Below are positions 7,700-21,878 of a stretch of 24,229 nt of DNA, one piece after another. The notes beneath the pieces were generated by a model, which was given only the letters and a program-made list of their open reading frames with translations, did not search any database and was not told the DNA's origin. The stretch is from a virus: positions 1 through 24,229 of IMG/VR virus record IMGVR_UViG_3300009502_001137; one strand, written 5' to 3'. Position 1 is the first letter of the stretch. Every line of letters starts with the position of its first letter. Both the position numbers and the translations under genes were made by a program.

Positions 7700-7726
7700 T
7701 CAGCTTTCAGCTTTTCAGCGTTTGCT
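7700..7726 (-). repeat. GCTGAAA tandem word at gene junction
   Basis: On the minus strand, three near-copies of (A)GCTGAAA lie immediately before the GTG start of the minor tail gene. The same word is used at 8693-8725. Confidence 0.75.
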
Positions 7727-7729
7727 TTC

Positions 7730-8692
7730 CTATGCGGAGAACAACACCAGCGGTTGCGGCACCCCGGCCGTAAACACCATCGTATTCACGAAGCCAACCT
7801 CCCCGTTGCCCAGCTTCGTCCCGCCAAACTCATAGCCCGCCCCGAAGACCCCCGCGTTCTTCAGCGTGATCGTCTTCGCGTTCGGTCCCGTCAGCACCAG
7901 GTCGCCCCCCGAGAATTGTTTGCCCAGCGTCCCCGCATTGATCGCCGTGTCAATCTGCGCCTGCGTCGGCCCATACGGACGCACCTTCGCCATGAACGAC
8001 ACCGAGTCCAGCTTGTAGCCGCGCACCAGCTTCTGCACCACCAGCGGCGAGTATTTGATGTCATTCGACAACACCCACTCATCCTCCGCCTCGATCGTAT
8101 CGCCCCCGTCGCCCCCCCACCCCACCGTTGTGCCCCACGCCCCCGTCCACGCGCCCGCCTGGAAGTCCGCCATCGTGAACACCCCCCCCGGATCAGCCGC
8201 CCCGGAGGCCGCATACGTGCGGAATGCGCCCGCATCCCCAAGCTTCTTAGCCGACGCCAGTATCCCCGTGATCTCGATCGGCCCAAACAGTGGCTTATCC
8301 ACCCCCAGGTGGATCTCCGGATGCTTCGTAATCGCGCTCCGCGCCATCGTGATCATCCGCCCGTCCAGCGCCCACACCTTGGTTGTCACATCCCCCGCTG
8401 CCGCACCATGTGGCCGCGTCCCGATCACCAGCGCCCCCGCCCTGGCCCCCACGCTCACCCCCAGGTAAGCCGGAAACAGCTCGCCCAGGTTGCCCCACGA
8501 ATCCCACGGCGTCGTGCTGATCACGTCCACCGAGTTCCCCTGCAGCGACGTCACCCGCCCGTGAAACCCGGAACTCCGGTCAATCTTCTCCTGCTTCACC
8601 TCATACTTCGTCGCGCCATTCTCTCCCTCCGGAAAGAAACCCGTCGTCCCCCGATAAACCTTGGCCGGCCCCGAATAAATGTTCTCGCTCAT
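7730..8692 (-). CDS. Major tail (tube) protein
   Basis: A 320-residue soluble protein starting MSENIYSGPAKVYRG and ending LVLFSA. Size, position before the tape measure, Gly-rich beta composition and 'VKxEKIDRSSGFHGRVTSLQGN' style N-terminal region fit tail tube proteins of siphophages. No separate sheath gene of about 400-500 residues is present next to it, which argues for a non-contractile tail. The ATG (8690-8692) is preceded by a CTGAAA word array rather than a strong SD. Confidence 0.7.
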   Translation of the reverse strand: MSENIYSGPAKVYRGTTGFFPEGENGATKYEVKQEKIDRSSGFHGRVTSLQGNSVDVISTTPWDSWGNLGELFPAYLGVSVGARAGALVIGTRPHGAAAGDVTTKVWALDGRMITMARSAITKHPEIHLGVDKPLFGPIEITGILASAKKLGDAGAFRTYAASGAADPGGVFTMADFQAGAWTGAWGTTVGWGGDGGDTIEAEDEWVLSNDIKYSPLVVQKLVRGYKLDSVSFMAKVRPYGPTQAQIDTAINAGTLGKQFSGGDLVLTGPNAKTITLKNAGVFGAGYEFGGTKLGNGEVGFVNTMVFTAGVPQPLVLFSA

Positions 8693-8725
8693 AGTTTCAG
8701 CCTTTCAGTATTTCAGCCTTTCAGC
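8693..8725 (-). repeat. CTGAAA tandem word at gene junction
   Basis: Four copies of a CTGAAA-centred word fill the gap before the tail tube gene. The first copy supplies the TGA stop of the upstream 76-residue gene (GGC TGA), so the word is shared between gene end and leader. Confidence 0.75.
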
Positions 8726-8951
8726 CCTTGTTTTCCGACGGTGCCTTCGCCCCTCGCAGATTCAGCATCAGCGCCCGCGCCTCATTGAACATGCGCTGCC
8801 AAAGCTCGTAATCCTTCGGGTCCTGTTTCTCCGCCTGGAAAGCCTTCAAGGCGGCCGTTGTCACCTCGTAAGGTGTGTTCACTTCCAGCGTTGTCGCAGC
8901 AGCGGCATTCGCCGATCGATAGATGTCCAGTTGTGTCTTCATAAAATTCAT
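8721..8951 (-). CDS. Small hypothetical protein, tail module
   Basis: A 76-residue, mainly helical protein (QLDIYRSANAAAATTLEVN and onwards) with a Lys/Gly-rich end. An alternative start is the second ATG at 8940-8942. No family is recognised. It sits between a tail-completion candidate and the tail tube gene, so a tail-assembly role is possible. Its stop lies in the CTGAAA word array. Confidence 0.6.
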   Translation of the reverse strand: MNFMKTQLDIYRSANAAAATTLEVNTPYEVTTAALKAFQAEKQDPKDYELWQRMFNEARALMLNLRGAKAPSENKG

Positions 8952-8952
8952 G

Positions 8953-8975
8953 TTAATGCGTGAACTCCGTGTCTA
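8953..8975 (-). repeat. CACGGA-type word at gene junction
   Basis: On the minus strand the gap reads TAG, then ACACGGAGTTCACGCATTAAC, then the ATG. This is a degenerate version of the ACACGGATT word, and it begins exactly at the stop codon of the upstream gene. Confidence 0.5.
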
Positions 8976-9704
8976 AGTATTCACCCAGATGACCCCCGAC
9001 GGTATCGCCCCCGCCACAAACGCCCTTGCCCTTATCACCTGCCCCGCCGATGCAATGGGCGCCGCATACAGCCTCGCCGTCGATCCCGCCTTCACGCTCC
9101 CCGGCAGTGGCGAACTCCCGTCCACCGTGAACCAAATCTCCGCCCCCGCCGTCGCGCATGTAAGCGTCATTAACCCACCGTTAACGGCCCATGTCAGTTG
9201 AGCCACTGCCGCCGGCCCGGTCATCGGCGCCTCCAGGCACGTAAAGCTCACCAGGTGCGACTTGATCCCGCTCCCCAGCTCCTGCTTCACGTTCAGCGCC
9301 GCGATGCACGGCGTCTCCGGCTTCAAGTTCGCGATCAGCCCCGCAAGCTGGTATTGCTTCACCGTGTCCCGGATGCGACGCGCGATCCGCCGCGAAGACT
9401 TCCCCGTCCCCTTCGCGTCCCGGTTCAGTTCGAGATTCTCCAGCGTCTGGAATGACGGATACAGCGTCATCGGACCGAACCGGATATTCGGGTTCAGATC
9501 ATCCGCCAGCGTCGGCATCACAATCACCGCCGCCCCGCGGTGCCCGCCCTTGGCCGTCTGCACCGCCTGCAAGCGCTCCATCTCCCGCGCCACGTTCTCC
9601 TCCTCGTAAACCACGATCGGGATGTCCCGGAAGAAATCGTCCCCCTCCAGGCAATCCTTCAGCTCCCACGGCAGCCGATCAATAATGTCCAGCACGTCGC
9701 TCAT
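8973..9704 (-). CDS. Tail-completion candidate with C-terminal chitobiase/Fn3-associated-like domain
   Basis: A 243-residue protein. Residues 1-165 (VLDIIDRLPWELKDCLEGDD and onwards) look like a tail terminator or head-tail joining protein by position. The last 70 residues carry the pattern of the chitobiase/beta-hexosaminidase C-terminal or Fn3-associated domain: IWFTVDGSSPLPGS, then ARLYAAPI, then VIRARAFVAG. Such domains are beta-sandwiches on surface or carbohydrate-active proteins and are unexpected on a tail-completion protein. The start overlaps the upstream stop as ATGA. The first-domain function is inference; the C-terminal domain is a motif-level call. Confidence 0.6.
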   Translation of the reverse strand: MSDVLDIIDRLPWELKDCLEGDDFFRDIPIVVYEEENVAREMERLQAVQTAKGGHRGAAVIVMPTLADDLNPNIRFGPMTLYPSFQTLENLELNRDAKGTGKSSRRIARRIRDTVKQYQLAGLIANLKPETPCIAALNVKQELGSGIKSHLVSFTCLEAPMTGPAAVAQLTWAVNGGLMTLTCATAGAEIWFTVDGSSPLPGSVKAGSTARLYAAPIASAGQVIRARAFVAGAIPSGVIWVNT

Positions 9705-10282
9705 GGCACGCTCCTCGCCACCTTCAGAAACTCAGCGCTCACGATCTTCCCGTAATCCTCCAACACCTCCCGAATCCCGGTCCGAAACGGCGCCCGCTCC
9801 GGAATCACCACATCATGCGCCTCAGCCTTGTAGGCGACCTCCTTGACGTTCTTCCGCGACTTCTTTGCGAAGATCAGCAAGTTGGCGTTAGCCGCCTGGT
9901 GCAGCAGGCTCCCCTTCTTATCCGTCGCCAGCCGGGCCGTCCCGGTGCGCGCCTTGTGATGGATCACCCCGCCAAATTCATGCAGCGCCGCATACTTCAC
10001 CGGCGACCCGATAGACGACGTTGTCCTCGTCCCGCTCGCCACGGTGGGCGACGCCCAGGTCGCCCCGCGTAGCCGGTTCGTCACCACGCCCAGCCTGTGC
10101 TCATCCACCGGAAACGGCCCTTGCCCCGTCAAATGCTTCCGCATGATATTGCCCACCGCCATCTGGTTGGCCTTATCCATCCCCAGGCGGACCGCATCCA
10201 TCCCCCACGAAGGCATCGCCTTCATGGTCGCCAGCAGCGCCTCCGCCTTCGGAGTCAGCTTGATTTGGATGCTCTCACTCAT
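9701..10282 (-). CDS. Phage virion morphogenesis/tail completion protein (gpS/gpG-like)
   Basis: A 193-residue protein counted from ATG at 10280-10282; a GTG at 10283-10285 directly abutting the upstream stop would add one residue. The signature VKYAALHEFGGVIHHKA and the later VIPERAPFRTGI match the 'YAxxHExGG ... PARPF' pattern of the P2 gpS/Mu gpG tail-completion family, with HK97 gp10 as the looser relative. This protein would close the tail end that meets the head. It is directly coupled to the connector gene upstream and overlaps the next gene by 4 bp. Confidence 0.7.
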   Translation of the reverse strand: MSESIQIKLTPKAEALLATMKAMPSWGMDAVRLGMDKANQMAVGNIMRKHLTGQGPFPVDEHRLGVVTNRLRGATWASPTVASGTRTTSSIGSPVKYAALHEFGGVIHHKARTGTARLATDKKGSLLHQAANANLLIFAKKSRKNVKEVAYKAEAHDVVIPERAPFRTGIREVLEDYGKIVSAEFLKVARSVP

Positions 10283-10285
10283 CAC

Positions 10286-10945
10286 TCACGAAAGCTGATA
10301 CCGGATGAACTGCGCCAAAATCATCTTCACCATCGGTGCCAGTCCCACCTTTGCCGTCTCGCTCTGCGCGTTCGGTTTATCCACCAGCCCGATGCCCAGA
10401 TTGTCCCGCGCCGCCCACATCGCCTCGCACTGCCACATGAACGCCGACCGCAGCTCATCCGGCAGATCCGCCACCGCCCCGCCGTTATTCAGTGCCAGCG
10501 GGTCCGTCACCGCCGGCCGCGCGCTCGGGTAGCCCGCCTCCTCCGGTTCCTTGTCCTCAAACCAATACCCGCCCGACCAGGTCGCCCGCACCTGCAGCGG
10601 CCACCGACCCAGCGTGTAGCCAAAATGCAACAGCCCATTCTCGTAATTCACGTTGATCGGCTGCCCCGTGATCTCCGTCCACGAGTCCGTCTGGAAATAC
10701 CGCATCTCCACCTTCTTGATCCCGCTGAGCGGGAACCCCGGCAAATAATAGTGCGGCCGGTCCCCGGAGAACACGATGGTCTGATCCTCCTTATATCCCA
10801 GCCGCCGGTTAGTGAACTGCTCAAACGCCCCGCGCACGCCAGCCCCGAGCATCTGCAGCGACAGGTCAAACTTCGACTCCCCCGCCAGCGATCCCGCCAG
10901 CAGCCCCCGCTTCAGCGTGTCCAGATTTGTAAGTCCGCAGTTCAT
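10286..10945 (-). CDS. Head-tail connector (gp6-like)
   Basis: A 219-residue protein. The N-terminal helical half (LDTLKRGLLAG to FEQFTNRRLGY) followed by a small beta part with YYLPGFPLSGIKKVEMRY and later PDELRSAFMWQC matches gp6-like head-tail connectors, which form a ring under the portal. Position between capsid and tail-completion genes agrees. The ATG at 10943-10945 is preceded by a long GAACCT-type word array with no clear SD. Confidence 0.7.
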   Translation of the reverse strand: MNCGLTNLDTLKRGLLAGSLAGESKFDLSLQMLGAGVRGAFEQFTNRRLGYKEDQTIVFSGDRPHYYLPGFPLSGIKKVEMRYFQTDSWTEITGQPINVNYENGLLHFGYTLGRWPLQVRATWSGGYWFEDKEPEEAGYPSARPAVTDPLALNNGGAVADLPDELRSAFMWQCEAMWAARDNLGIGLVDKPNAQSETAKVGLAPMVKMILAQFIRYQLS

Positions 10946-10950
10946 TCAGT

Positions 10951-11008
10951 TTGTTCGGTATTCGGTGTTCCAGGTTCGAGGTTCGAGGTTCAAGGTTCGA
11001 CGGTTCGG
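10951..11008 (-). repeat. CGAACCT tandem word array at gene junction
   Basis: On the minus strand, at least six degenerate copies of a CGAACCT/CGAATAC word run from the stop of the 58-aa gene to the connector start. The same family occurs before the lipase start (20919-20942) and inside the lipase gene (20450-20490). Confidence 0.75.
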
Positions 11009-11013
11009 TTTGC

Positions 11014-11190
11014 TCAAGCCGCCATCTCCGCCAGCTCCCGCTTCGTCACGTGCCGGTCCTCGCGTATCATTCGGTTCAGCGGTGGCCGGCGCATCATCCT
11101 GTCCTCGCCGCACACCACGCCCCGCTCACCACGCGGAAACAGCTTCACCGCCGCATCCCGCTTCCGCCTCGGTTTCAAGTTCGCTGTCAT
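11014..11190 (-). CDS. Small basic protein (58 aa), capsid module
   Basis: ATG at 11188-11190, TGA at 11014-11016. It reads MTANLKPRRKRDAAVKLFPR and ends VTKRELAEMAA. It is strongly basic, with two Met/Arg clusters (RMMRRPP, NRMIREDR). The frame fits the gap between the decoration-protein and connector genes, and a word array begins directly after its stop, as for its neighbours. Function is unknown; a nucleic-acid or capsid-interior role would suit its charge. SD is weak. Confidence 0.5.
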   Translation of the reverse strand: MTANLKPRRKRDAAVKLFPRGERGVVCGEDRMMRRPPLNRMIREDRHVTKRELAEMAA

Positions 11191-11212
11191 ACTTCACGTT
11201 TCAGGTAAGGCC

Positions 11213-11242
11213 CGGCGGCGGAGCTCTAAAAATCCGCCGCCG
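11213..11242 (-). other. Perfect 10-bp stem-loop between capsid genes
   Basis: CGGCGGCGGA (11213-11222) and TCCGCCGCCG (11233-11242) are exact inverted repeats around a 10-nt loop that reads TTTTTAGAGC on the transcribed strand. No U-run follows the stem, so it is not a classical intrinsic terminator. mRNA processing, stability or attenuation downstream of the capsid gene is possible. Confidence 0.6.
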
Positions 11243-11260
11243 AGCGTGTCCCACCCAAGT

Positions 11261-12028
11261 CTAGTTCCCGTAACGGTTCGGCTTGTATACTACCCGCAAG
11301 TTCAGGTTGGTAAGCACCGCGTTGTTCCCGTTCGTGATGTAATTGAGCCGTAGATAGCCCAGCGAGTTCAGCGTCACGTTGGTGTAGCCGCTCACCGCCG
11401 TCGTCCCGGACGCCGTCACCGGAAACACCACCGCCGACGGCACCCAGTTCACACCATCCCCGGAACCATCAAACACCGCCGTTACCGCCGTCGTCCCGGC
11501 CGCCATCAGCTTGAACGACATCTGCAAGCCGATGTCCCCATATTTGGTCAACGGGATCGTCTGCGTGTAGTTCGTCGCCGAGTTCACCCCAATGCACTGG
11601 TTGGTGGTCGACGACCCGTCCAAGGCGATGCCGTTGGTTTGCACCAGCGCCGTTGCCCCGTATTGCGTCCGCTGCGAAGGCTGGTTCTGCGCCCCGGCCG
11701 TCATCAAGCCCAGCGTCGCCACCAGGGCCACCGCTGCCAGCTTAATGAACCGGCAAGCCAGCGCCGCATACTGCTGTGCGCTCACTTCGCCCTCCTGGTC
11801 CTTCTGGAAGGCTCGGCCGTCCACGCTCACAAACTCCTTGGCCCGCACCTTCACCTTCTTCGGCTCCGCCTTGGCTCGCGCCTCCAGCTCGGCGTTGATG
11901 GCGTCCAGCACATCCTGGGCGTCCTTGTTATCCGGCGTCCGGGACAGCACATCGGCCGCCTCAGCCTTCATCTGGCTCAGCTCAGCCGCCGTCCCGCCCG
12001 CGATCAATTTCTTAGTCTTCGAATCCAC
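11261..12028 (-). CDS. Probable capsid decoration protein with internal signal-peptide-like segment
   Basis: 255 residues; GTG start at 12026-12028 with an AAGGAAAG SD-like stretch upstream. Residues 1-90 are charged and helical and end in a small domain (VKVRAKEFVSVDGRAF) like short phage head accessory domains. Residues 93-112 are hydrophobic (FIKLAAVALVATLGLMTAGA) and look exactly like an N-terminal signal peptide with AGA before QNQ, but placed internally. Residues 115-255 are Thr/Asn-rich and beta-type. It may be a fusion of a cytoplasmic head protein with an exported one. Its position just after the major capsid gene suggests decoration; this is inferred. Confidence 0.55.
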   Translation of the reverse strand: MDSKTKKLIAGGTAAELSQMKAEAADVLSRTPDNKDAQDVLDAINAELEARAKAEPKKVKVRAKEFVSVDGRAFQKDQEGEVSAQQYAALACRFIKLAAVALVATLGLMTAGAQNQPSQRTQYGATALVQTNGIALDGSSTTNQCIGVNSATNYTQTIPLTKYGDIGLQMSFKLMAAGTTAVTAVFDGSGDGVNWVPSAVVFPVTASGTTAVSGYTNVTLNSLGYLRLNYITNGNNAVLTNLNLRVVYKPNRYGN

Positions 12029-12081
12029 AATCTTTCCTTTCGTTATCTGTTTATGTTTCGGTTAAAGCCGTGGGTCGGGGC

Positions 12082-12110
12082 TCTTAACCCTCAACCCTCA
12101 GCCCTCAACC
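12082..12110 (-). repeat. GGGTTGA tandem word at gene junction
   Basis: On the minus strand, three to four copies of GGGTTGA/GGGCTGA lie in the 88-bp gap after the capsid gene stop. The rest of the gap holds the SD-like region of the next gene. Confidence 0.75.
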
Positions 12111-12116
12111 ATTTAG

Positions 12117-13616
12117 CTACTGAGCCGCCAAGGTCAGCACCGCGATCGGCTTCAGGTTATCGTTCCCCGCCAGCGTCTTGAGCTTCACGCCCGCCCGGCA
12201 CAGGCACCGGAACGCCCGCATGTTCTCCGCGAACTTGATGTCGTCGCTCGTTGCCAGCTCAATATCCTGCCGCAGCCCGACCGCCTGGCCTTCCGGATCA
12301 CCAAACGCCGCCACTGCGCTCCCGGCCGTGTTCGTCGTGGGACCCACGGCCGGCAGCTTCACCGGGTAGCCCAGGATGCTGCCGATGCCGCCCGGCGTCG
12401 GCGCCTCCGTGTAGGTCTGGAACAGCGGACGGCCGTTCTTATCCCGCACCGCCAGGGCGCGGATCAACATCTGCGGGTGCATCCACCAGCAAGCCTTGCG
12501 CTTCAGCACCTGCGGGCTCACGGTCAGCAGCGTGTTCTGCCAATCCTCAAGCTGCGTCCCTTCCACCGTGGTATTGCCGGCGGCAGCGGCCGCTGCCAGC
12601 TTCGTGTTCGCGCTCGCGGCATTGAAGATGCCCACGTAGCCCGCGTTGGTCTGGTCGGCCGCGCCGCTCCCGACGAACGCCGCCGTGTCCAGGCCGAACG
12701 CCACGCTCTGCAAGAGCTGCTTCATCAGGAACGGAGCCATATCCACCGAGGAATCCGCCAGCAACTCGCGGGCGGACAGCAGGTAAACGGCCAGCGTCTG
12801 AATGGTCAGCGTCACCGAGCTGCCCGTGAAGGCGCCCTCCGTGATGGCCGTGCCTTCACCCGACCCGCCCGTTCCCGAGCCGATCCAATAAAACTGCGGA
12901 CGAGCGGTGGCCACCGGCACCAGGTTGGTCCGGGCGCCCACGTTCAGCACATCCAGCGTGCTCCAGTCGCCGTAATCCTGCAGCGTGTCATAGATCGTCT
13001 TGAACCATTCGCTCGGGATCGTTGCCTGCCCCAGGGAAGTGTCCACGCCCGTCAGCGCCTTGTGCTGCGTCCGAGCCGTCTCCAGCGTCTTCTGCCACTC
13101 CGTGGGCAGCTTGCTGTAGTCGCCGGGGAAACAGATCGCCCGCGCGCTCGCATTGAACCACGCCCGCATCTCGTCATTATCGGCCAGCGCCTTCTCCACG
13201 GGATCACGGAAGGAAGACCGCGCATTCAGCGCAATCGCCTTCTGCACCTTCACCATCTGGCGCATCGACGTGTCGAAGTCATTCACCGTGTTCTTCACCT
13301 TGGTCAGTTCCTCCAGGGCCTTCTTGACCTCTTTGTCCGAGCGATCCAGATCGCTGGCCACCTGGTCAAACCGGCTCTTGTGCGTCTTCTGCTCATTGGC
13401 GGCTTCCTCCACGCCCTTGAGCACCTTGGACTGGAACTCCTCCTCGGGCATCACCGTGCCCAGCATCGGAATCACCGCCAGGCACAGCAGCGCCGCCTTC
13501 GGGTAGAAGGCCACCAACGCCACCGCTACAATCGCCAGCACCATAAATGCCAGCCCCAACACCAACCGCCGGCCTCGCAGCATCGGCAGCATGAACTTCT
13601 TGATCTTGTTTCTCAT
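12117..13616 (-). CDS. Major capsid protein (HK97 fold) with N-terminal membrane-like segment
   Basis: 499 residues from ATG at 13614-13616. Residues 60-140 form a charged coiled coil (delta/scaffold domain), and the rest has HK97-type capsid signatures: TIQTLAVYLLSARELLADSS, then GRPLFQ and ILGYPVKLPAVG. The gene follows the prohead protease, as expected. Residues 18-55 form a strongly hydrophobic double segment (LVLGLAFMVLAIVAVALVAF then a second stretch), which is very unusual for a capsid subunit. A start at Met56 (13449-13451) would remove it but lacks an SD. A longer upstream frame overlaps the protease gene and is rejected. Confidence 0.8.
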   Translation of the reverse strand: MRNKIKKFMLPMLRGRRLVLGLAFMVLAIVAVALVAFYPKAALLCLAVIPMLGTVMPEEEFQSKVLKGVEEAANEQKTHKSRFDQVASDLDRSDKEVKKALEELTKVKNTVNDFDTSMRQMVKVQKAIALNARSSFRDPVEKALADNDEMRAWFNASARAICFPGDYSKLPTEWQKTLETARTQHKALTGVDTSLGQATIPSEWFKTIYDTLQDYGDWSTLDVLNVGARTNLVPVATARPQFYWIGSGTGGSGEGTAITEGAFTGSSVTLTIQTLAVYLLSARELLADSSVDMAPFLMKQLLQSVAFGLDTAAFVGSGAADQTNAGYVGIFNAASANTKLAAAAAAGNTTVEGTQLEDWQNTLLTVSPQVLKRKACWWMHPQMLIRALAVRDKNGRPLFQTYTEAPTPGGIGSILGYPVKLPAVGPTTNTAGSAVAAFGDPEGQAVGLRQDIELATSDDIKFAENMRAFRCLCRAGVKLKTLAGNDNLKPIAVLTLAAQ

Positions 13617-13619
13617 AAC

Positions 13620-13658
13620 GTTGTGTCTATCTCTCTTTCTTTGGTTTGTGTTCTCTGC
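13620..13658 (-). repeat. Purine-rich leader before the capsid gene
   Basis: On the minus strand the gap reads CGCAGAGAACACAAACC and then AAAGAAAGAGAGATAG before the start. It is weakly repetitive (AGAGA, ACACA) and belongs to the same class of junction sequence. It may act as the SD region. Confidence 0.4.
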
Positions 13659-13660
13659 GG

Positions 13661-14401
13661 TCAAATTCGCCGCAGTTGTTTTTCTATTGCATCCAGGAAC
13701 GCCTTGCGCTTCTGCTGCCTGGCCTGGCTGGCGGCAGCAGACTCCTCTGCCAGCCCGGCGGTTTCGCGCTTGCTTCGCTCCGTGGAAATCCATTCAAGGT
13801 CCGAATCATTCAGCACCCCGGCCTTGTAACTCTTCGCCAGCGCATTCGGGTTCACACCCATCACGCACGCGCTCAGCTCAATCTGTTGCTGCACCACATA
13901 AATGGTGTTCGGCTGCCGCATCCCCGCCCCGATCCCCAGCTCCGCCATCTGTTGGCTCCATATCGGCTTGCCCGGCCGCGACGACGCCGGCAGGATCTGC
14001 GCCCCGCTCCAATCCTCCGACCACTGGTCATGGCCCAGCGAAGTCAGGATCAGCTCCGGCAGGAACCCGGCGCTAACGGCCTTCAGGTAGCCGGCCTTCG
14101 TCATCGCCCAGCCAAACTGCGCCAGCTTGTTCTCCGCCACGTCCACCGCCCATTGCACCGTCTCAATGAGCCGGCGCCCTTCCACCTTGAAATCGAGGAT
14201 CTTCCCCAGGGTGAACTCAATCGACCCATACCGATGCGAATCCACGAACGGCCCGTTCTTCGTCAGCCGGTCAAACCGCCACCCATCAGCCCGTATCACT
14301 TCCCGGTCCGCGTCCAAAGTCTGGTCAGACGCCACGTATTCCAGGATGGCCTGCTTCTCATCCAGCACCTTCGTTTCAGGATTGATCTCGCGTATCAACA
14401 T
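13661..14401 (-). CDS. Prohead protease (S78-like, HK97 family)
   Basis: A 246-residue serine protease that would trim the capsid delta domain during maturation. The catalytic pattern is visible: His56 in VDSHRYG, Ser110 in KAVSAGFLP, and a later IELSACVMGVNPNA (Glu175) equivalent to the 'ELSxVxxPANPxA' motif of the family. A 55-residue stretch between Ser110 and that motif is longer than usual. The C-terminus (180-246) is charged and helical. It lies directly upstream of the capsid gene. ATG is at 14399-14401. Confidence 0.85.
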   Translation of the reverse strand: MLIREINPETKVLDEKQAILEYVASDQTLDADREVIRADGWRFDRLTKNGPFVDSHRYGSIEFTLGKILDFKVEGRRLIETVQWAVDVAENKLAQFGWAMTKAGYLKAVSAGFLPELILTSLGHDQWSEDWSGAQILPASSRPGKPIWSQQMAELGIGAGMRQPNTIYVVQQQIELSACVMGVNPNALAKSYKAGVLNDSDLEWISTERSKRETAGLAEESAAASQARQQKRKAFLDAIEKQLRRI

Positions 14402-14424
14402 AGGTTTTTGCTCTCGACTCTCGA
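14402..14424 (-). repeat. GTCGAGA tandem word at gene junction
   Basis: On the minus strand two copies of GTCGAGA and then GCAAAAACCT precede the protease ATG. The first copy adjoins the TAG of the upstream gene. The same word, GAGTCGAGAGCCAAAA, precedes the start at 19689. Confidence 0.7.
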
Positions 14425-14619
14425 CTACCGCCCCGGCATCACCGCCATCACCGGCAGCTTGGATCGTAAATGCTCCGCCATCTCCCGTTCATCGCTGAAC
14501 GCTGCCTCGCCCAGCCGATAAGACAGCCCGCCAGCGGACGCCGCCACCGTCCGGCTCTTCCGGTCCCGGCTCAGTTCCACGCCCGCCCCGACCGCTTTTT
14601 TGAGTTTCCGCAAATTCAT
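14425..14619 (-). CDS. Small basic hypothetical protein (64 aa)
   Basis: MNLRKLKKAVGAGVELSRDR onwards, ending LPVMAVMPGR. A basic N-terminus is followed by a short alpha/beta pattern. It fills the space between portal and protease, with word arrays on both sides. No family is recognised; a small head-assembly protein is possible. Confidence 0.55.
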   Translation of the reverse strand: MNLRKLKKAVGAGVELSRDRKSRTVAASAGGLSYRLGEAAFSDEREMAEHLRSKLPVMAVMPGR

Positions 14620-14646
14620 TTAGTGTCTTTCGTGTCTTTCGTGGTT
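14620..14646 (-). repeat. CACGAAAGA tandem word at gene junction
   Basis: On the minus strand the portal stop TAA is followed at once by two copies of CACGAAAGA, then CACTAA and the ATG of the 64-residue gene. This fills the whole junction. Confidence 0.8.
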
Positions 14647-17032
14647 ACTCATCCTCCGGCGGCTGCACCACCGCGAGCTGCACGCATTGGCAGTTGATTA
14701 CATTCCCCGCGCTCCCATCATCGTCCCCTGGATACATCAGCAACTCGCCCCCGACCTCGAACGGTTCATCCATCGCGATCGGCCCGCTCTCCCCGCCCTC
14801 CGCGTAGCGGTCTTCCGCCTCCTGATGTTCCGGCCGGATGTTCGGCCCGCCCGAGCACAGCCAGGTCTTGTATTCCACCCCGGCCGCCGTCATTGATTCA
14901 TGCCGCGAGAAATTGAACGCCATCCCCGTCTCCGTCATCGCCACCCGTTTCGCCTGCCCCTTCGAGAGCTGGTTAAACTCCGCCCGCACCCGGTCGCTCA
15001 GCTCCTCCATCGTCTCCCGGTTCTCATAGCCCTCATTCAGCGCCGTGTTGATCTGGTCGCGCACCGTCTGGCCGCACTTCATGATGGCCTGGTCACGCGA
15101 CAGCACATACTCCCCCGCCTTCTGGGGCGGGAACTTCCAGGCATCAATCCCCAGCTCATCCTGCCGCACCTGGTCTGCAGCCGTCTGCAAGGCCATCGTC
15201 ATCACCGGATTCAGCACCAGCTTGAGCTGCTCCCCAAACGCCTGCGCATTGAACACGAAATCAATCACCGACTTCTGCACCGTGGTGGGCGCTTCGGCCG
15301 CGCCATCCAAAGCCTTCGTGCCGCCGTGCGAAGCCAGTTGCCGCAGTGCCTTAGCCCGAAACTCAATCAGCACCCGGTTGATCTTCCCCTCGAACATCTT
15401 CACCGTGGCCGCCCGCCTCTTCATGTGACCCTCCCAGATCCGCTGCCGCTTAGCCCGCGCCATGGCCTTGCGTCCAGCTCCCGCCTGGCTCCCCTTGCGT
15501 TCCCGGAGCGCCTTGATCATCGCCTGCACCGGGTTGGCATCATCTTCCTGTTGCGGATCGTAGTAAGGAGGACGTTCATTCTTCCCGTCCTTCCCATCCT
15601 TCACATTCCCCGGCGCGCTTCCTCCCACTTCACTCAGCAGTGGGTTGGTAGCGGGCGCCGGCGTCGGCTCCATCGCCTCAGTCATCGGCGTCAAGCTCAT
15701 CGGCAGATACCCGATGTCATCCCCCTCGAACCTCGGCAGATCCAAGCTCAGGTAATCGCTCGCGTCCTTGATCGGCATTCCGCGGTTCGCCAGTTTCTCC
15801 ATCGCATCAAACCGCTCCCGCCGCACCGCCTGCAAGACCGGGTGTTCGTCCCAGAGCAGCCCGATCTCATACCGCTGCCCCGTCAACCGCTCGACTAGGT
15901 TCTCCAGTGCATCGCACAGCTTCGCCCCGGTCGGAATGCACGTGTCCAGGATGAGCTGGTAATAAGCGCTCTGGCTTCCCAGCGAGAAATCGTTCTTCAC
16001 GTCGAACATCGACATCGGCACCCCGAACGCCGCTGCGATCTCATGCCGGTTCTCCAGCCGTTGCGCGATGAAGTTCCCGTCCACCGACTTCACCTGGGGA
16101 TCTTCCACCGAGATGTCCCCCGTCATGAAGATCGGCCGGAAGTCCCCCCGGAGCTGCGCCGAGCGCTTCGCCTTCAGATCCGCGATGATCTGTTCCCGTT
16201 GCGGGTCAGCCGGCACCCCGTTCTTCGCCACGATGTAGGGGCCCGTGTCCCCGTTATTCGCCATCAGGTTCCGCGAGAACTTGCCCGCCAGCCAATCCCC
16301 TTCGCTGGCCATCGCCGCCGCGTCATACTCCGCCAGCCCCCGCCAATTATCGTAAGGGTTCCAGAACTTCACCTGGATCACCTGGTCAGGCGTCAGGTGG
16401 TGCACCTTCCCGCCGCCATCCGTGAACACCCAGCCCACCAGCTCCCCGCCTTCCACCACATGCCGCATCCGGTCCGTCCGCGCCACGATGATTTGAGCAA
16501 ACCCCTTGTTTCCGGCCCCAGTAGCCCGTCCGGCACGCGCTTCCGGGAACGGCGCCATCATTTCATCCGACAGCAGCCAGAAACACTCCCCCTTAAGCTT
16601 CAGCCACCCGATGGAAGCCTCCACAAAATCGCTCCAGGCCAGACCCTTCGCCGGCTGTTCCAGCCAGGACGCCACGTCCGGCAGCTCCACAAAATCAGAT
16701 TCCGACCGCTTCACCATCCCCTTGCGCGTCCATACCTTAACCTTCTTCCCCCTGGCCATCGGCGCTTTGCCATTGGCCATAGCCTTCAACCCCGACGCCT
16801 CCCCGCCCCGGCAGTCCAGGAACGCCACTTGGATCGACGACACCGGCCCCGCCACCTTCTTGATCGCCCGTTGCACCCAGGTCGAGTTCTTGTAAGGCTC
16901 GCTCAGTGACTCCTGCCCGCCGCCCTCGATGGCCCGAGCGAACCAGTAAGCCGGCAGCCCCTGGAACCCGCCGCCCATCGAATCAATGCCCTTCCGGACC
17001 AGCCACTTAGCCGCCTTATTGATCAAGCCCAT
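14645..17032 (-). CDS. Portal protein fused to MuF-like head morphogenesis domain
   Basis: 795 residues. Residues 1-450 are an HK97-type portal: KNSTWVQRAIKKVA, LKGECFWLL (147-155), VIQVKFWNP, NRHEIAAAFGVP (328-339), LGSQSAYYQL. A low-complexity linker (455-505) includes KDGKDGKNE. Residues 530-795 match the MuF/SPP1 gp7 family with RVAMTETGMAFNFSR (696-710) and the terminal INCQC motif (779-783). The start ATG at 17030-17032 has GGAGG (17039-17043) at 6-nt spacing, so a longer start at 17059 is unlikely. One polypeptide thus supplies the DNA-entry ring and a minor head protein. Confidence 0.85.
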   Translation of the reverse strand: MGLINKAAKWLVRKGIDSMGGGFQGLPAYWFARAIEGGGQESLSEPYKNSTWVQRAIKKVAGPVSSIQVAFLDCRGGEASGLKAMANGKAPMARGKKVKVWTRKGMVKRSESDFVELPDVASWLEQPAKGLAWSDFVEASIGWLKLKGECFWLLSDEMMAPFPEARAGRATGAGNKGFAQIIVARTDRMRHVVEGGELVGWVFTDGGGKVHHLTPDQVIQVKFWNPYDNWRGLAEYDAAAMASEGDWLAGKFSRNLMANNGDTGPYIVAKNGVPADPQREQIIADLKAKRSAQLRGDFRPIFMTGDISVEDPQVKSVDGNFIAQRLENRHEIAAAFGVPMSMFDVKNDFSLGSQSAYYQLILDTCIPTGAKLCDALENLVERLTGQRYEIGLLWDEHPVLQAVRRERFDAMEKLANRGMPIKDASDYLSLDLPRFEGDDIGYLPMSLTPMTEAMEPTPAPATNPLLSEVGGSAPGNVKDGKDGKNERPPYYDPQQEDDANPVQAMIKALRERKGSQAGAGRKAMARAKRQRIWEGHMKRRAATVKMFEGKINRVLIEFRAKALRQLASHGGTKALDGAAEAPTTVQKSVIDFVFNAQAFGEQLKLVLNPVMTMALQTAADQVRQDELGIDAWKFPPQKAGEYVLSRDQAIMKCGQTVRDQINTALNEGYENRETMEELSDRVRAEFNQLSKGQAKRVAMTETGMAFNFSRHESMTAAGVEYKTWLCSGGPNIRPEHQEAEDRYAEGGESGPIAMDEPFEVGGELLMYPGDDDGSAGNVINCQCVQLAVVQPPEDE
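15570..15612 (-). repeat. GAAGGATGGGAAG-type word in portal linker
   Basis: On the minus strand GAAGGATGGGAAGGACGGGA encodes KDGKDGK in the portal-MuF linker. It resembles the GGGAGTAAT words in the terminase linker and at 21778-21922. Confidence 0.5.
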
Positions 17033-17217
17033 GCCATACCTCCGTTCCTTTGACCCCATTGCGCCATCCTAACCCGTTTCAGGAAGGCCATTAAGAGCCC
17101 CTTAACGCCTCCAAGGGCGCGTCGGAACACCGTAAGGCTATATCGACCCCCGGAAATCGTCCCAGCGCCCCCTAGCGCCCCGACCTTGGACCTTGGACTT
17201 TGGACTTTGGACTTCAT
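17023..17217 (-). CDS. Possible small protein between terminase and portal (64 aa)
   Basis: The frame starts with an ATGA overlap with the terminase stop and ends 10 bp inside the portal gene, as a coupled small gene would. However, its first 12 residues (MKSKVQSPRSKV) are simply a translation of the AAGTCCA word array. The remainder is Arg/Gly-rich with one hydrophobic patch (GVKGLLMAFLK). It may be real or a by-product of repeat insertion. Confidence 0.3.
   Translation of the reverse strand: MKSKVQSPRSKVGALGGAGTISGGRYSLTVFRRALGGVKGLLMAFLKRVRMAQWGQRNGGMAWA
17030..17043 (-). promoter_or_regulatory. Strong Shine-Dalgarno of the portal gene
   Basis: GGAGG (17039-17043, minus) is 6 nt upstream of ATG. 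It decides the portal start and is one of the few canonical SDs in the late operon. Confidence 0.8.
17183..17215 (-). repeat. AAGTCCA tandem word at gene junction
   Basis: On the minus strand four copies of AAGTCCA/AGGTCCA begin at the large terminase stop codon (ATA TGA AGTCC). Confidence 0.8.
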
Positions 17218-18722
17218 ATCAGTATGCTCGAAAACCCAACCCCCGCCGGACCATCCCCCGCCCGCGTGCAAAGCGCCGCCGCCGTCCCCCGATCCGAGTG
17301 CCCGTCCTCGGTATGCGGTGCCCGGTAGGTGATGTTCCCGCTCGGCGTCACGCATCGGTAGATCGAATGCAGATCCTCCCGGATGGTCTGGCTGATCGGT
17401 ATCCGCCACGCCCGCTTCTCAAACGCCATCCGCAGCTTCCCGAAAAGCTCCACCTTCGTCGTGTTGCTCATCGTCACCAGCTCGATCTTCCCATACTTGT
17501 GCTGCTCCGGGTTCCACTCCTGGAACTCCTGCACCAGGTAGTCCCCCATCCCGATCCCCGGCCCCGTGTAATCCAGGCATACCCGCCGCGCCTTGTTGAT
17601 CCGGGGACGCAGCACGTCGATCTGCTTCGGCGTGGACATGTTCTCCAGGCACAGCACTTCCTTCGTGATCTGCAGGTCGGAAATCTTCTCCGCCGCCCAG
17701 CACACCGTCAGATCCCGCTTCCGCCCAAAATCAATCCCCAGGTCCAGTGCATTACTCCCATTCTTCCCATTACTCCCATCCCAATACTCCGCCGGCATCC
17801 CCTCCGTCCCCTCGATGCTCTCGCAGCCCGCGATCAGCTCGTAAGGCAGCAGCACCGATAGCGCGTCGATGAACTGGCACAGGTATTCCTGTGCGAACCC
17901 CTCGAAGTCCCCCATGCTCTGCATCGCCTCGCGGACCTCTTCAATGTCCACCGGCAAACCCATCAGCACCGCGTGGTAGATCGTCACCAGGTGCCGCGAC
18001 CAGGCCATCTTCTTCCCGTCGCCCTTCGTCCAGATCTTGTTCGCCGCGCTCCCGATCCCGTTCGGCGTCGTCACCAGCCGCACCTTCTTCTCTCCGCCCC
18101 GCAATGGATTCGTGATGCTCGGCAGCACCGCCCGCCACGTCGCCGCCGGGTCCTCGAAGAAATCAAACTCCGTCAGCAGCAAACTCGCCGACCGCCCGCG
18201 CACCGTGTCCGGCCGGCCCGGCACGGCCCGCGCCCGGCTCCCGTTCGAGAAGATGATCTCCGCCGCCTTCAACAGCGTCTCGCTGCCCCCGGCCCGCCGC
18301 TCCTGGTAATCGTCGATCTTCAGCCCGAACGCCTCCGCCCAAGTCTTCCCCTGGTCCAGCGAATCCAGCGCCTGCCGCTCCGATGGCGCCGCAATCATCC
18401 ATTCCGTCTTCCGCTTGAAGCAATCCTCCGCCAGCTCCCCCTCGCTCGTGAAATCCTTGCCGCTCTGCCGCGACTGCAGCGCAATCTTGAACCGGCTCGC
18501 GTCATAGGCATAGCCAAACTGGTATTCCAGGTAGAGCGACCGGGGATCATCCTTCGGATAAGGATTCTTCCACCCGTTGACATTCACCCCCAGCTTGTGC
18601 CCCTTGCACCGCTTCTCCAAATCTTCCAACGGCACATCCCGGAGCGCGACCCCAGCCGTAGCCTTGGCCTTCTCGACCTGGCTGTGCAGCTTCTCAATCG
18701 CGTCTTTTCGGGTATTGGCCAT
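17214..18722 (-). CDS. Terminase large subunit
   Basis: A 502-residue DNA-packaging motor. The ATPase half shows a Walker A-type SRQSGKD (84-90), a Walker B-type LLLTEFDFFED (181-191) and the coupling motif TTPNG (218-222). The nuclease half starts at LDLGIDFGRKRDLT (326-339, Asp331) with VCLDYTGPGIGMGD and a final DGHSD (473-477), matching the RNase H-like nuclease of Terminase_6/Mu gp28-type enzymes. The ATG at 18720-18722 is 6 bp after the small terminase stop; a much longer upstream frame covers the small terminase gene and is rejected. Residues 313-324 are encoded by a word repeat between the two domains. Confidence 0.9.
   Translation of the reverse strand: MANTRKDAIEKLHSQVEKAKATAGVALRDVPLEDLEKRCKGHKLGVNVNGWKNPYPKDDPRSLYLEYQFGYAYDASRFKIALQSRQSGKDFTSEGELAEDCFKRKTEWMIAAPSERQALDSLDQGKTWAEAFGLKIDDYQERRAGGSETLLKAAEIIFSNGSRARAVPGRPDTVRGRSASLLLTEFDFFEDPAATWRAVLPSITNPLRGGEKKVRLVTTPNGIGSAANKIWTKGDGKKMAWSRHLVTIYHAVLMGLPVDIEEVREAMQSMGDFEGFAQEYLCQFIDALSVLLPYELIAGCESIEGTEGMPAEYWDGSNGKNGSNALDLGIDFGRKRDLTVCWAAEKISDLQITKEVLCLENMSTPKQIDVLRPRINKARRVCLDYTGPGIGMGDYLVQEFQEWNPEQHKYGKIELVTMSNTTKVELFGKLRMAFEKRAWRIPISQTIREDLHSIYRCVTPSGNITYRAPHTEDGHSDRGTAAALCTRAGDGPAGVGFSSILI
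17751..17790 (-). repeat. GGGAGTAAT word repeat in terminase interdomain linker
   Basis: On the minus strand TGGGATGGGAGTAATGGGA and AGAATGGGAGTAATGC encode DGSNGKNGSN between the ATPase and nuclease domains. Sequence of the same type occurs untranslated at 21800-21822 and 21901-21926. Confidence 0.65.
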
Positions 18723-18727
18723 GAGCT

Positions 18728-19273
18728 TTACTTCGCCGGCATCCCAAACAGTTCCCGCATCCGCGCCGTCCTCTGCTCCTCGGTCAGCGCGGCATCCCCC
18801 ATCACGCCCTGGGCCTGGTCGGCCAGCTTTGCCTTCTCTTCCAGCAGCGTCACCCGCCGCTCGTCTAGTTTGATCTGCGCACTCGTCTGCTGCAACCGGG
18901 CGAATACCAAGACCGGTTTCATCATCCGGTTGACCAGCTCCAGCATTTCCGGGTCGGCATTCCCTTGCGTGCTCAGCTTTAAAATCAGCACGCGATGCAG
19001 CCGGATCAGCGTGTCGAACTCCGGCGCTGGCGACTCCGCAAACTGCTTCTCGACCTCCTTGCACTGCTGTGCCCCTGACGCAATCTGCTTGAGCAACTGC
19101 TCCTCCTGCATAGCCGACTGCCGCGACTGCCACCACTCCGACAATCGCCCCAACGACACCGAGCACCCATCTAGCTTGAGCTGCTCTTGCGCCTCCTTCA
19201 GCGATTTCCCTTCCAGGAACCACTCCGTAAGCCGCTCCGCATGTGCGTCCAGTTTTGAGGCTCTGGCTTTCAT
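18728..19273 (-). CDS. Small terminase candidate (DUF3486/Mu gp27-like)
   Basis: 181 residues. The N-terminal 50 residues form a helix-turn-helix-like region (LTEWFLEGKSLKEAQEQLK then SLGRLSEWWQSR). The rest is helical with FARLQQTSAQIKLDERRVTLLEEKAKL, a pattern typical of the DUF3486/Mu gp27-like proteins that precede the large terminase. It would recognise phage DNA and hand it to the motor. ATG is at 19271-19273 and overlaps the TGA of a 42-residue frame (ATGA). Confidence 0.7.
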   Translation of the reverse strand: MKARASKLDAHAERLTEWFLEGKSLKEAQEQLKLDGCSVSLGRLSEWWQSRQSAMQEEQLLKQIASGAQQCKEVEKQFAESPAPEFDTLIRLHRVLILKLSTQGNADPEMLELVNRMMKPVLVFARLQQTSAQIKLDERRVTLLEEKAKLADQAQGVMGDAALTEEQRTARMRELFGMPAK

Positions 19274-19398
19274 TCATGTTGTGAACCCGCCCACGGACGG
19301 ACGGCAGTTGGCCTCTGCTGCAGCAGGGCACTGCCGTCCGGGAGCAGCGCGAACGTCTTCGCCCTGGTCTGCTCACTTTCCATGTGCTTTGGTGTCAT
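19270..19398 (-). CDS. Very small protein coupled to the small terminase (42 aa)
   Basis: ATG at 19396-19398; reads MTPKHMESEQTRAKTFALLP and ends RPWAGSQHE. Its stop overlaps the next start as ATGA, and it fills exactly the space between the CACAGAT word array and the small terminase. An alternative start is Met6. No family is recognised. Coupled translation of the terminase gene may be its main effect. Confidence 0.45.
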   Translation of the reverse strand: MTPKHMESEQTRAKTFALLPDGSALLQQRPTAVRPWAGSQHE

Positions 19399-19410
19399 TT
19401 TTTAAAAGTT

Positions 19411-19436
19411 CTGTGAAATCTGTGCCATCTGTGGCT
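19411..19436 (-). repeat. CACAGAT tandem word at gene junction
   Basis: On the minus strand TAG is followed by CCACAGATGGCACAGATTT and CACAG: three copies of CACAGAT directly after the stop of the winged-helix gene. Confidence 0.8.
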
Positions 19437-19689
19437 ATCTCATCTGCCGCGCCTGGTGCACCCCCTGCGCCGTCAGCGTCCAGGTCCGCTGCCCAAGGAA
19501 CGAATCCGTAACCCCGGCGACATACCCGCCCGCCTCCACGTCCTTCAGCGCCTCAGACACATCGGCCAAGGTCGGCTGACCAGGCCGTGCATGCGCCTGC
19601 ACCGCCGATACCAGCGATGCCTCATCCATCGGCATCCCATCCCACGACAGCAACACCAGCAAAATCCCGCGTTTCAGTTTCGCTTTCAT
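19435..19689 (-). CDS. Small winged-helix protein (VpaChn25_0724-like position)
   Basis: 84 residues: a helix RGILLVLLSWDG, then DEASLVSAVQAHA, then a recognition-helix-like TLADVSEALKDVEAGGYV, and a wing with QRTWTLTAQGVHQAR. This layout matches the small winged-helix proteins that sit next to gp27-like genes in Mu-like phages, often annotated as the VpaChn25_0724 family. A role in packaging or late control is inferred from position. ATG is at 19687-19689. Confidence 0.6.
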   Translation of the reverse strand: MKAKLKRGILLVLLSWDGMPMDEASLVSAVQAHARPGQPTLADVSEALKDVEAGGYVAGVTDSFLGQRTWTLTAQGVHQARQMR

Positions 19690-19706
19690 TTTTGGCTCTC
19701 GACTCA
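19690..19706 (-). repeat. GTCGAGAG word at gene junction
   Basis: On the minus strand TGAGTCGAGAGCCAAAA joins the stop of the coiled-coil gene to the start of the winged-helix gene. It is a single copy of the word found doubled at 14402-14424. Confidence 0.6.
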
Positions 19707-20171
19707 GCTCGGCTTGCTCTGCGCATTCATCGCCCCACGCACCTCGCTCACCTCGGACAGGATCTCATTCAGCCGGTTATGCAGCCCCGTCGTCCGGTCC
19801 TCATCCGCCTTATTGATGCGCCGCTCCATCTCAACCATCTCTTTGCGCACCCCCTCCAGCTCGGTGTAGATCCCCTTGCGGCTCCCGGCCGCGTCCTTCG
19901 CATCCGTCACCCGCTGCCCGTTCAGGAACGCCAACTGCGTCTCAATCGACGCATGATGCTTCTCGCACTCCTTCTTCGTGATAAACTCCTGCGCCGCCTG
20001 CACCACAAACGGCTGCGGCCCCACCGAAGCCCGCTGCGTCCGCTTGATCGAAGTGATCACGGCAATGTTCGCCCCGATCCCTGCAATCAGCGCCAGCGTA
20101 AGTATCAGTTGCCACACAAACCCAGCATCCGGCATCGCCGCCCCAAATAGGATAGTCGCTTCACTCATCAT
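19704..20171 (-). CDS. Membrane-anchored coiled-coil protein (DUF2730-like or inner spanin)
   Basis: 155 residues, with ATG-ATG at 20166-20171 leaving the start ambiguous by one residue. One transmembrane helix (about 18-41, FVWQLILTLALIAGIGANIAVI) is followed by a basic stretch and a long coiled coil (about 85-145, ELEGVRKEMVEMERRINK). This fits the DUF2730 proteins that precede gp27-like genes in Mu-like phages. The same topology would suit an inner-membrane spanin subunit, given the lipoprotein encoded two genes upstream. The sequence alone does not decide. Confidence 0.6.
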   Translation of the reverse strand: MMSEATILFGAAMPDAGFVWQLILTLALIAGIGANIAVITSIKRTQRASVGPQPFVVQAAQEFITKKECEKHHASIETQLAFLNGQRVTDAKDAAGSRKGIYTELEGVRKEMVEMERRINKADEDRTTGLHNRLNEILSEVSEVRGAMNAQSKPS

Positions 20172-20177
20172 TCATCA
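20161..20177 (-). repeat. TGAATGA tandem word at gene junction
   Basis: On the minus strand GAATGATGAATGATGAGTGA contains the stop of the lipase, two further stops and the tandem ATG starts of the next gene, so termination and initiation share one repeat. Confidence 0.65.
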
Positions 20178-20930
20178 TTCACCCTGCATAATTTCCCCCA
20201 GCCTCCCCTGGTATTCCCCCACCAGGTGATCCACCACTGGCGCCAGCCGCCCCAGCCGGTACCCCACCACCGTCCCGATAAAATCGCTCACCGCCTTCAG
20301 CCCCAGCCGCGGGTTCCGCACCACCCCGCCCGTAGCCGGCATAAAACACTCCTGCCCCACATGTCGATACCCCGTCACCCAAACCGGCAGCCGTGTCACC
20401 ACGTCCGCCTCCAGCACCCACCGCTCCGTAATCCCACCCAGCGATTGGCTGTGCGATGTTCCCGGTTCGATGTTGGCTGTTTCCCGATTGTAACTCCTCC
20501 GCCACGCCCCATCCCCCACCCTCGGCCCCCCAAACGTCACCACCGCCCGCACCGGCTTCCCCGCCGCCCGCAGCATCCGCGCACATATCAACGCCTCCGC
20601 CCCCCCCTTCGAGTGCCCCGTCACCACCACCGCCGACCGCACCGCCGGCACCCGCAATATCTCCGGCAGCAACGAATTCGCCGACCGCCAAAACCCCGAA
20701 TGCACCCCCCCAAAATCCGTATCCACCATCTGAATCCGAAAATCACTCAACCAATCCCGCGTGTTCGCGCTCCCCCGAAACGCCAGCACCAGCGGCCCCG
20801 CCCCCGCCGCCGGCACCATCAACACATGCGCCAGGTCACTCTCAAACGTCACCTCCTCATACGCCCGCGCCGAAGCCTCCACGCAAATTCGCGCCAGCTC
20901 CAGATTCAAAGTTCGCGGCTCAGGGTTCAA
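20175..20930 (-). CDS. Class 3 lipase/esterase
   Basis: 251 residues. Lipase_3 hallmarks are present: VLAFRGSANTRDWLSDF (oxyanion region, 48-64), nucleophile Ser107 in VTGHSKGGAE, VVTFGGPRVGD (130-140), Asp176 in LEADVVTRLP and His235 in VVDHLVGEYQ. The triad is complete, so the enzyme is probably active on ester lipids. Its place between a lipoprotein and a membrane coiled-coil protein suggests an envelope-breaching role at lysis. It has no ATG near the domain start; the frame opens at TTG 20928-20930 inside a GAACC word array, after an in-frame TGA. Residues 148-168 are a repeat-encoded insert. No signal peptide is visible. Confidence 0.75.
   Translation of the reverse strand: MNPEPRTLNLELARICVEASARAYEEVTFESDLAHVLMVPAAGAGPLVLAFRGSANTRDWLSDFRIQMVDTDFGGVHSGFWRSANSLLPEILRVPAVRSAVVVTGHSKGGAEALICARMLRAAGKPVRAVVTFGGPRVGDGAWRRSYNRETANIEPGTSHSQSLGGITERWVLEADVVTRLPVWVTGYRHVGQECFMPATGGVVRNPRLGLKAVSDFIGTVVGYRLGRLAPVVDHLVGEYQGRLGEIMQGE
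20427..20490 (-). repeat. CATCGAA/GGGAACA word insert within the lipase gene
   Basis: On the minus strand GGGAAACAGCCAACATCGAA and CCGGGAACATCGCAC encode NRETANIEPGTSHSQS, which interrupts the usually short segment between VGD and the catalytic Asp. It belongs with the GAACC-type words at 10951-11008 and 20919-20942. Confidence 0.6.
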
Positions 20931-20992
20931 GGTTCAACGTTCCCTATTGGCGATTGGCGATTGGCGATTGGCCATTGGCCATTGGCGATTCG
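20919..20992 (-). repeat. Two adjacent word arrays upstream of the lipase
   Basis: Reading the minus strand, a 7-nt GCCAATC/GGCCAAT array (20944-20990, about six units) is followed by TTGAACCTTGAACCCTGAG (20919-20940). The second array contains the presumed TTG start. The gap to the lipoprotein stop holds nothing else. Confidence 0.8.
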
Positions 20993-20995
20993 GTG

Positions 20996-21328
20996 TTACT
21001 TCAACGCCGCCGCCCCGGCCGCCGCCCCCGCCGCAAAACTCTTCGCCACCGCCTCCCCCGTCGCCCCGATAATCGCCGCCTGGGCCGTCCCCGCATTCGC
21101 CACATTGTCCGGATTCAACCGCGCCGTCAGCTTGTCGATATGCACCCGCACCGTCCCATTCGTCTCGCACGTCACATCCAACCCCACCAAATCATTATCC
21201 TTCGGCGTCTCCAACGAAAACGGCTGCCCCCCCAAACTCCCCGTCACCTTAGTCTTCGGAATCGCCATATTCACCGAACACCCCGCCAAAAGTCCCACCA
21301 ACCCGATAAGTCCCATCCGTGTCTTCAT
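20996..21328 (-). CDS. Small lipoprotein, lysis-region candidate
   Basis: 110 residues with a lipobox: MKTRMGLIGLVGLLAGC, so Cys17 would be lipidated and the protein anchored in an envelope membrane. The mature part is short and polar, and the C-terminus is Ala/Gly-rich (SFAAGAAAGAAALK). It is the first confident gene of the late operon, just before the lipase. An outer-membrane spanin or superinfection-type lipoprotein is possible. Its first codons (GACACGGATGGGACTTATCGG) resemble the word repeat at 7231-7262. Confidence 0.65.
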   Translation of the reverse strand: MKTRMGLIGLVGLLAGCSVNMAIPKTKVTGSLGGQPFSLETPKDNDLVGLDVTCETNGTVRVHIDKLTARLNPDNVANAGTAQAAIIGATGEAVAKSFAAGAAAGAAALK

Positions 21329-21331
21329 AGT

Positions 21332-21358
21332 CTTGTGTGTTATCAGCCTTCAACCTTT
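21332..21358 (-). repeat. GGCTAAA/GGCTGAT word at gene junction
   Basis: On the minus strand GGGCTAAAGGTTGAAGGCTG precedes the lipoprotein start. Its first copy contains the TAA that ends the possible CPFCGG frame. Confidence 0.55.
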
Positions 21359-21686: not shown

Positions 21687-21689
21687 CTC

Positions 21690-21821: not shown

Positions 21822-21878
21822 CTTACTCCCCGCCGAAATTTACCATTCACAATTCACGCTGCCCAGTGGCCATCGGCC

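Follow-up and report, generated by a model that had tools for sequence, protein, structure and literature searches.

Tandem heptanucleotide arrays at the gene junctions of a phage of Verrucomicrobiota type and in genomes of that phylum

The window analysed here, the whole 24,229-nt (24.2 kb) IMG/VR virus record IMGVR_UViG_3300009502_001137, carries on its minus strand a late operon with TerS, TerL, portal/MuF, a protease-like gene, major capsid, connector and tail genes, and the gaps of this operon hold short tandem repeats, mostly of 7-nt units, which are the subject of this study. The window is a phage of Verrucomicrobiota type. TerL relatives occur in 16 contigs of metagenome-assembled genomes (MAGs) or isolates, every label of which is a Verrucomicrobiota, Lentisphaerae or Kiritimatiellae name, and in more than 30 IMG/VR contigs, while the closest annotated relatives of the window TerL (17214–18713) are those of the Mu-like phages StopSmel, B23, vB_RhkS_P1 and B3, at ~30–35% identity. 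Genes were predicted by a simple purpose-written codon-usage caller, so that starts are possibly some codons off. Rfam gave no match anywhere in the window.

A strict array was defined as a perfect repeat of period 6–10 with at least two copies. The window contains 24 such arrays, compared with 2–10 (mean 5.7) after dinucleotide shuffling, and 9 of them fall in the 16 gap segments of the late operon, where 200 shuffles averaged 0.17 and never exceeded 2. Arrays with more than two full copies number 12 in gaps and 0 in the 20.7 kb of called coding sequence (CDS). The period is 7 in the great majority of cases, with a few 8- and 9-mers besides, and the results of Tandem Repeats Finder (TRF) agree with those of the strict-array search in the window (Table 1).

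Table 1. Tandem arrays of the window, with their positions and gene context
Array	Position	Strand	Context
CACGGATTA x2	7245–7262	minus	inside first codons of 323-aa gene
AAAGCTG x2.1	7700–7714	minus	adjoins GTG start of 139-aa gene; 15 nt after preceding stop
GGCTGAAA, 8-mer, ~4 imperfect copies	8695–8726	minus	provides TGA stop of 76-aa gene
TGAGTGA x2	10275–10288	minus	spans overlapping stop/start junction
CGAACCT, ~5.7 imperfect / 2.9 perfect copies	10967–11007	minus	before 219-aa gene
GGGTTGA array	12086–12110	minus	downstream of major capsid gene
GTCGAGA x2.3	14411–14426	minus	overlaps TAG stop of 64-aa gene
CACGAAAGA, 9-mer x2.8	14619–14643	minus	fills gap after portal/MuF gene
AAGTCCA x4.7	17182–17214	minus	starts within TGA stop of TerL
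TTTCACAGA, degenerate 9-mer	19410–19433	minus	after 84-aa gene
TGAATGA array	20161–20181	minus	provides stop of lipase-like gene
TTGAACC x2	20924–20937	minus	upstream of lipase-like gene
GCCAATG/GCCAATC x6	20946–20990	minus	after 110-aa gene
GGCCGAT x14	21684–21783	minus	upstream of late operon; largest array in window
GGCCGAT x2.4, second block	21868–21884	minus	second of two GGCCGAT blocks

The initial annotation had placed a tandem word at most non-overlapping junctions of the late operon. The observation is real, though in part overstated: about eight of the words it listed are true arrays, and 8 of the 16 late-operon junctions of at least 8 nt carry a strict array. The arrays of AAAGCTG, GGCTGAAA, CGAACCT, GGGTTGA, GTCGAGA, CACGAAAGA, AAGTCCA, TGAATGA and GCCAATC were recovered where Table 1 lists them. 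The remaining words read differently: the supposed CGAACCT at 20919 is in fact TTGAACC x2, CACGGA at 8953 is one degenerate pair (the real CACGGATTA pair sits elsewhere, at the first codons of the 323-aa gene), GTCGAGA at 19690 is a single copy, CACAGAT at 19411 is a degenerate 9-mer, and GGCTAAA at 21332 is degenerate. The GGCCGAT x14 array was absent from that list. Next to it, still upstream of the operon, lies a block, gggaataatgggagggatgggggggcggctggggaatcgcc, that is present in duplicate (window 21684–21930).

About half of the arrays begin at a stop codon, which had been described as their usual position; however, the AAAGCTG array adjoins a start, and the start next to the AAGTCCA array is more than 120 nt away. 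That junctions with overlapping starts lack words is mostly trivial, there being no space for them, and the overlapping junction 10286/10285 does have TGAGTGA x2. The arrays were also said to be always T-poor on the transcribed strand, which is true in this phage, but this is a trait of all its gaps (A 0.31 and T 0.17, with or without arrays) and is partly common to its CDS (T 0.175). As a general rule, a T-poor strand is ruled out by contig L015, whose T-rich arrays lie 5–9 nt before starts, and by longer gaps, in which arrays are purine-rich after stops and pyrimidine-rich before starts on the transcribed strand.

The same kind of array is found in other phages. Among 50 relatives selected by TerL or capsid, and not by words, there are 0.66 arrays per kb of gap versus 0.083 per kb in CDS (eightfold), while the control phages (lambda, HK97 and four Mu-like phages) have a single array in 39 kb of gap sequence. 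Period 7 accounts for 33 arrays of at least 2.5 copies in the unselected phage gaps versus 0 in shuffles, and other periods give 0–7 arrays in the same gaps (2–7 for periods 5, 6, 8 and 9). The window ranks among the densest contigs, as do L015, L020 and L051. Viral contigs retrieved via three of the window words show junction arrays of the same kind.

Genomes of the presumed host phylum were represented by partial MAGs, some chosen for carrying a given word, and the host order was taken as the GTDB order to which the MAG carrying the closest chromosomal TerL belongs. Within this order, AAGTCC x3 occurs in 12 of 146 genomes, GAACCTC x2.4 in 18 of 320 and GGTTGAG x3 in 46 of 320. Reversed control words are likewise common there, showing that the vocabulary is wide and ruling out one special word. 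Genome G107 has AAGTCCA, CGAACCT and TGAATGA in common with the window. In Verrucomicrobiota genomes, the words stand between genes but also inside them, and arrays lie in convergent gaps as well.

In the LarC gene of hosts, an in-frame AAAGTCC array encodes a KVQSPKSK linker (L092 10340–10370 and L240; genomes G001 and G107). A single host gene of 994 aa (L084 17764–18819) contains five arrays of different heptamers within ~1 kb, and its homologues have other words or none at those sites. Flanks of ~47 nt are common to two gaps (L183 5447 and L171 10643, G029) with arrays of different heptamers, GGAGGGT x10 and GGAAGAC x10, suggesting that a longer dispersed element may surround some arrays.

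Comparison of relatives reveals turnover of the words. At orthologous junctions, relatives carry a different word, lack one or have an ATGA overlap instead. At the TerL–portal junction, the window has AAGTCCA x4.7 at the stop, and relatives have unrelated spacers before a conserved-looking stretch. This stretch of ~100–150 non-coding nt (window 17030–17180, minus strand; ctggcagccccaaggcgcg...gttaatgccccgttaaa), with counterparts in the gaps of L019, L030, L035, L038, L039 and L040, is possibly a packaging site or an RNA element.

Copy number changes by whole units. Contigs L262 and L269, which are 99.5% identical, differ by exactly two heptamer units (7 vs. 5 copies), and L270 and L274 differ by three. 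At 70–88% identity, arrays at one and the same site may differ in copy number and in word, as in L270/L274 and in L084/L071, the latter with different words. The arrays show two features of heptanucleotide simple sequence repeats (SSRs, or LSSRs when long), an excess of tandem 7-nt units over chance and whole-unit variation between relatives. The window's own arrays show no copy-number change, L001 and L009 being identical. Among near-identical pairs, which are few, 25 of 29 array comparisons are unchanged, and a hypermutable phase-variation switch was therefore rejected. The initial annotation had suggested looking for clean gain or loss of words at the junctions of relatives and empty homologues; a flank-pair search returned replaced or variable spacers, with no clean empty site and no junction signature, and the L037/L038 presence/absence case, a candidate for clean insertion at an empty site, was set aside since the difference falls in a replaced stretch.

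Words also recur within genomes. Relative to permutation, same-word pairs number 11 vs. 0.10 in L015, 12 vs. 0.60 in G107 and 10 vs. 0.11 in G004. Recurrence at unlinked sites indicates that individual genomes copy or favour particular words.

Our preferred explanation, which we hold to be probable though far from certain, is that the arrays are heptanucleotide repeats produced by slippage and some within-genome copying, and kept to the phage gaps by coding constraint. Short tandem heptamers (with a few 8- and 9-mers) from a large, lineage-specific vocabulary would arise and spread in Verrucomicrobiota genomes and their phages, would gain and lose whole units by strand slippage, and would be replaced by other words over time. 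In a compact phage, coding constraint would leave them almost only the gaps, and at the junctions they would be tolerated. Since each 7-nt copy shifts the reading frame by one, three copies of a word with TGA, TAA or TAG are enough to place a stop in all frames, and arrays thus often supply the stop codon. The earlier proposal that the words are scars of some process agrees with their lineage specificity, whole-unit copy change, in-place replacement and genome-wide recurrence, and is better supported than the parallel proposal of translation leaders. The part of it that had this process target gene boundaries is not supported, as hosts and phages carry arrays inside genes too; nor is such targeting needed, since selection alone would confine arrays to gaps in a compact phage.

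Several observations weigh against this explanation. No word is repeated among the window's own strict arrays, and the gene calls come from a home-made caller. Some arrays are kept at 76–95% identity (the L266/L277/L260 family, and LarC in two genomes), suggesting that in those cases they may have a function. Plain independent slippage predicts neither the same word at unlinked sites nor oriented arrays. However, when all words were scored, using arrays clearly nearer one open reading frame (ORF) end of the gap, 68 of 91 arrays had the purine-rich strand pointing away from the ORF (68:23, p = 2.5e-6), the ratio being 16:0 at start ends in hosts and 20 outward vs. 1 inward for AAAGTCC across many genomes. 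Together with word recurrence, the outward rule calls for an additional, strand-specific cause.

The rule applies to both ends of genes (stops 34:13, starts 34:10) and to hosts alone (28:5). On the start side, the bias stays at 24:7 when an in-frame stop separates the array from the start, which excludes a start-calling artefact as its source. Array-free gaps are near neutral in hosts (A+G 0.50–0.54). For AAAGTCC, a few of the sites are homologous or lie in one gap, so the independent count is ~18:1. The measure matters, however: outward orientation by A>T is 46:37 over all data and not significant, and the purine p-value is somewhat optimistic because the A>T measure had already been inspected when the purine measure was adopted. 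In the TerL/capsid relatives alone, the purine count of 20:12 is not significant, and orientation is unreadable in the window, whose short gaps are filled by the array all the way between stop and start.

The purine-outward rule hints at a strand-specific process that makes arrays. In its broad form, which we consider rather unlikely, such a process would write outward purine-rich heptamer arrays with a lineage-specific vocabulary in Verrucomicrobiota and their phages, and the junction words would be its scars. A concrete version, to which we give a similarly low weight, is the repair of DNA ends: at an intergenic break, the 3′ ends, which read outward from genes, would be extended with purine-rich heptamers by re-primed or slipping synthesis before joining, leaving outward arrays and sometimes an inverted pair across the gap. 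The orientation counts at both gene ends, the neutrality of array-free gaps and the AAAGTCC bias fit this scheme, as do the same-word inverted pairs of host gaps, in all five of which the purine strand points towards the interior of the gap; the same geometry has been published for GGGAATC (PMC4692102). However, no clean empty site, junction signature or enzyme was found, near-identical phages mostly keep their arrays unchanged, and the weak count in TerL/capsid relatives and the unreadable window gaps stand against it. Inside genes, moreover, AAAGTCC lies on the coding strand by 21:5, which would need selection in addition.

A functional alternative, put forward in the initial annotation, is that the arrays are translation leaders replacing Shine–Dalgarno (SD) sequences. 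In such a role, T-poor or pyrimidine-rich unstructured arrays would aid 30S binding (S1) where an SD is absent. SD duplex energy and local folding were compared, on the same contigs, between starts preceded by an array at a distance of up to 30 nt and other starts. A strong SD was found at 7 of 63 array starts (11%) vs. 45 of 214 others (21%; Mann–Whitney p = 0.10), and array starts were slightly weaker folded, again at p = 0.10 and thus not clear. Both slight differences run in the direction expected of leaders, and in Beggiatoaceae TAACTGA repeats stand just before starts where SDs are rare (PMC4679880). Against leaders, arrays occur in convergent gaps and inside genes, orthologous genes do without them, base composition before starts varies by lineage (T-rich in L015, A-rich in the window), and purines prevail in arrays that follow stops, pyrimidines in those that precede starts. 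The portal gene possesses an SD of its own in addition to an array at the stop before it. A leader role may exist at single junctions but is not supported as a general explanation, and as such we judge it improbable.

Inverted array pairs within one gap might instead fold into RNA stems that end or stabilise transcripts. Convergent inverted pairs do exist in host gaps (L093, G004 C6, L155, L160 and L166) and in phage contig L248, and one pair is conserved at 76–92% identity in L260/L266/L277; yet most arrays stand in their gap without a partner and inverted pairs are absent from the window, making hairpins or terminators a very unlikely account of the arrays. Recombination linkers, junction words promoting phage module exchange like lambdoid boundary sequences, are scarcely probable, for although words are found at module borders (the gene at 7730–8692 lies between GCTGAAA-type words) and are common to phages and hosts, most window junctions have different words, shared words span only 15–40 bp, and no exchange with a word at the breakpoint was found.

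The arrays can be placed among known heptamer repeats. Rehm et al. (2015; PMC4692102) described GGGAATC in Xanthomonas and GGGGA(C/T)T in Nostoc as following stops on the coding strand and preceding starts on the non-coding one, with overlap of stop codons included and with convergent inverted pairs in Xanthomonas. The present arrays are likewise few-copy heptamers, mostly intergenic, 0–50 nt from ORF ends, with an intragenic minority, and they share the outward strand over all words and for AAAGTCC, though weakly in the TerL/capsid relatives alone. The Rehm system, however, uses in each group a single G-rich word that forms quadruplexes, located in chromosomes and not found on plasmids, whereas here there are many words, most of them not quadruplex-like and without GG(G) runs, in phages as well as chromosomes, and in Verrucomicrobiota. 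MacGregor (2015; PMC4679880) reported TAACTGA direct repeats that precede starts with few SDs in marine Beggiatoaceae. These too are heptamers of 2–6 copies, mostly intergenic, sometimes over an upstream ORF end, at SD-poor starts and of scattered phylogeny, but they consist of a single word in one orientation that mostly ends a few nt before a start, in contrast to the many different words here, about half of which begin at a stop.

The survey of Mrazek et al. (2007), as cited in PMC4679880 and PMC4692102, found a heptanucleotide excess in long SSRs and proposed polymerase slippage, and the arrays resemble it in both period and proposed source; as cited there, it is a general genome survey without a phage-junction pattern or an orientation rule. 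The GGGACCG elements of Geobacter metallireducens (PMC2700814), with 49 copies treated as putative regulatory RNA, are similar in having four tandem heptamers dispersed between and within genes, but constitute one GC-rich conserved element. In the literature searched, no report of heptamer repeats in phages or Verrucomicrobiota was found. The arrays are thus a multi-word variant of known heptamer repeats, and what is new is the many words, the occurrence in phages and the purine-outward rule across words.

Previous accounts of heptamer repeats at gene ends each dealt with a single word. That many words in a phylum and in its phages obey a common orientation rule argues for this rule being a property of the process rather than of one sequence, and small, recombining phage genomes make it easier to track gain, loss and copy number.

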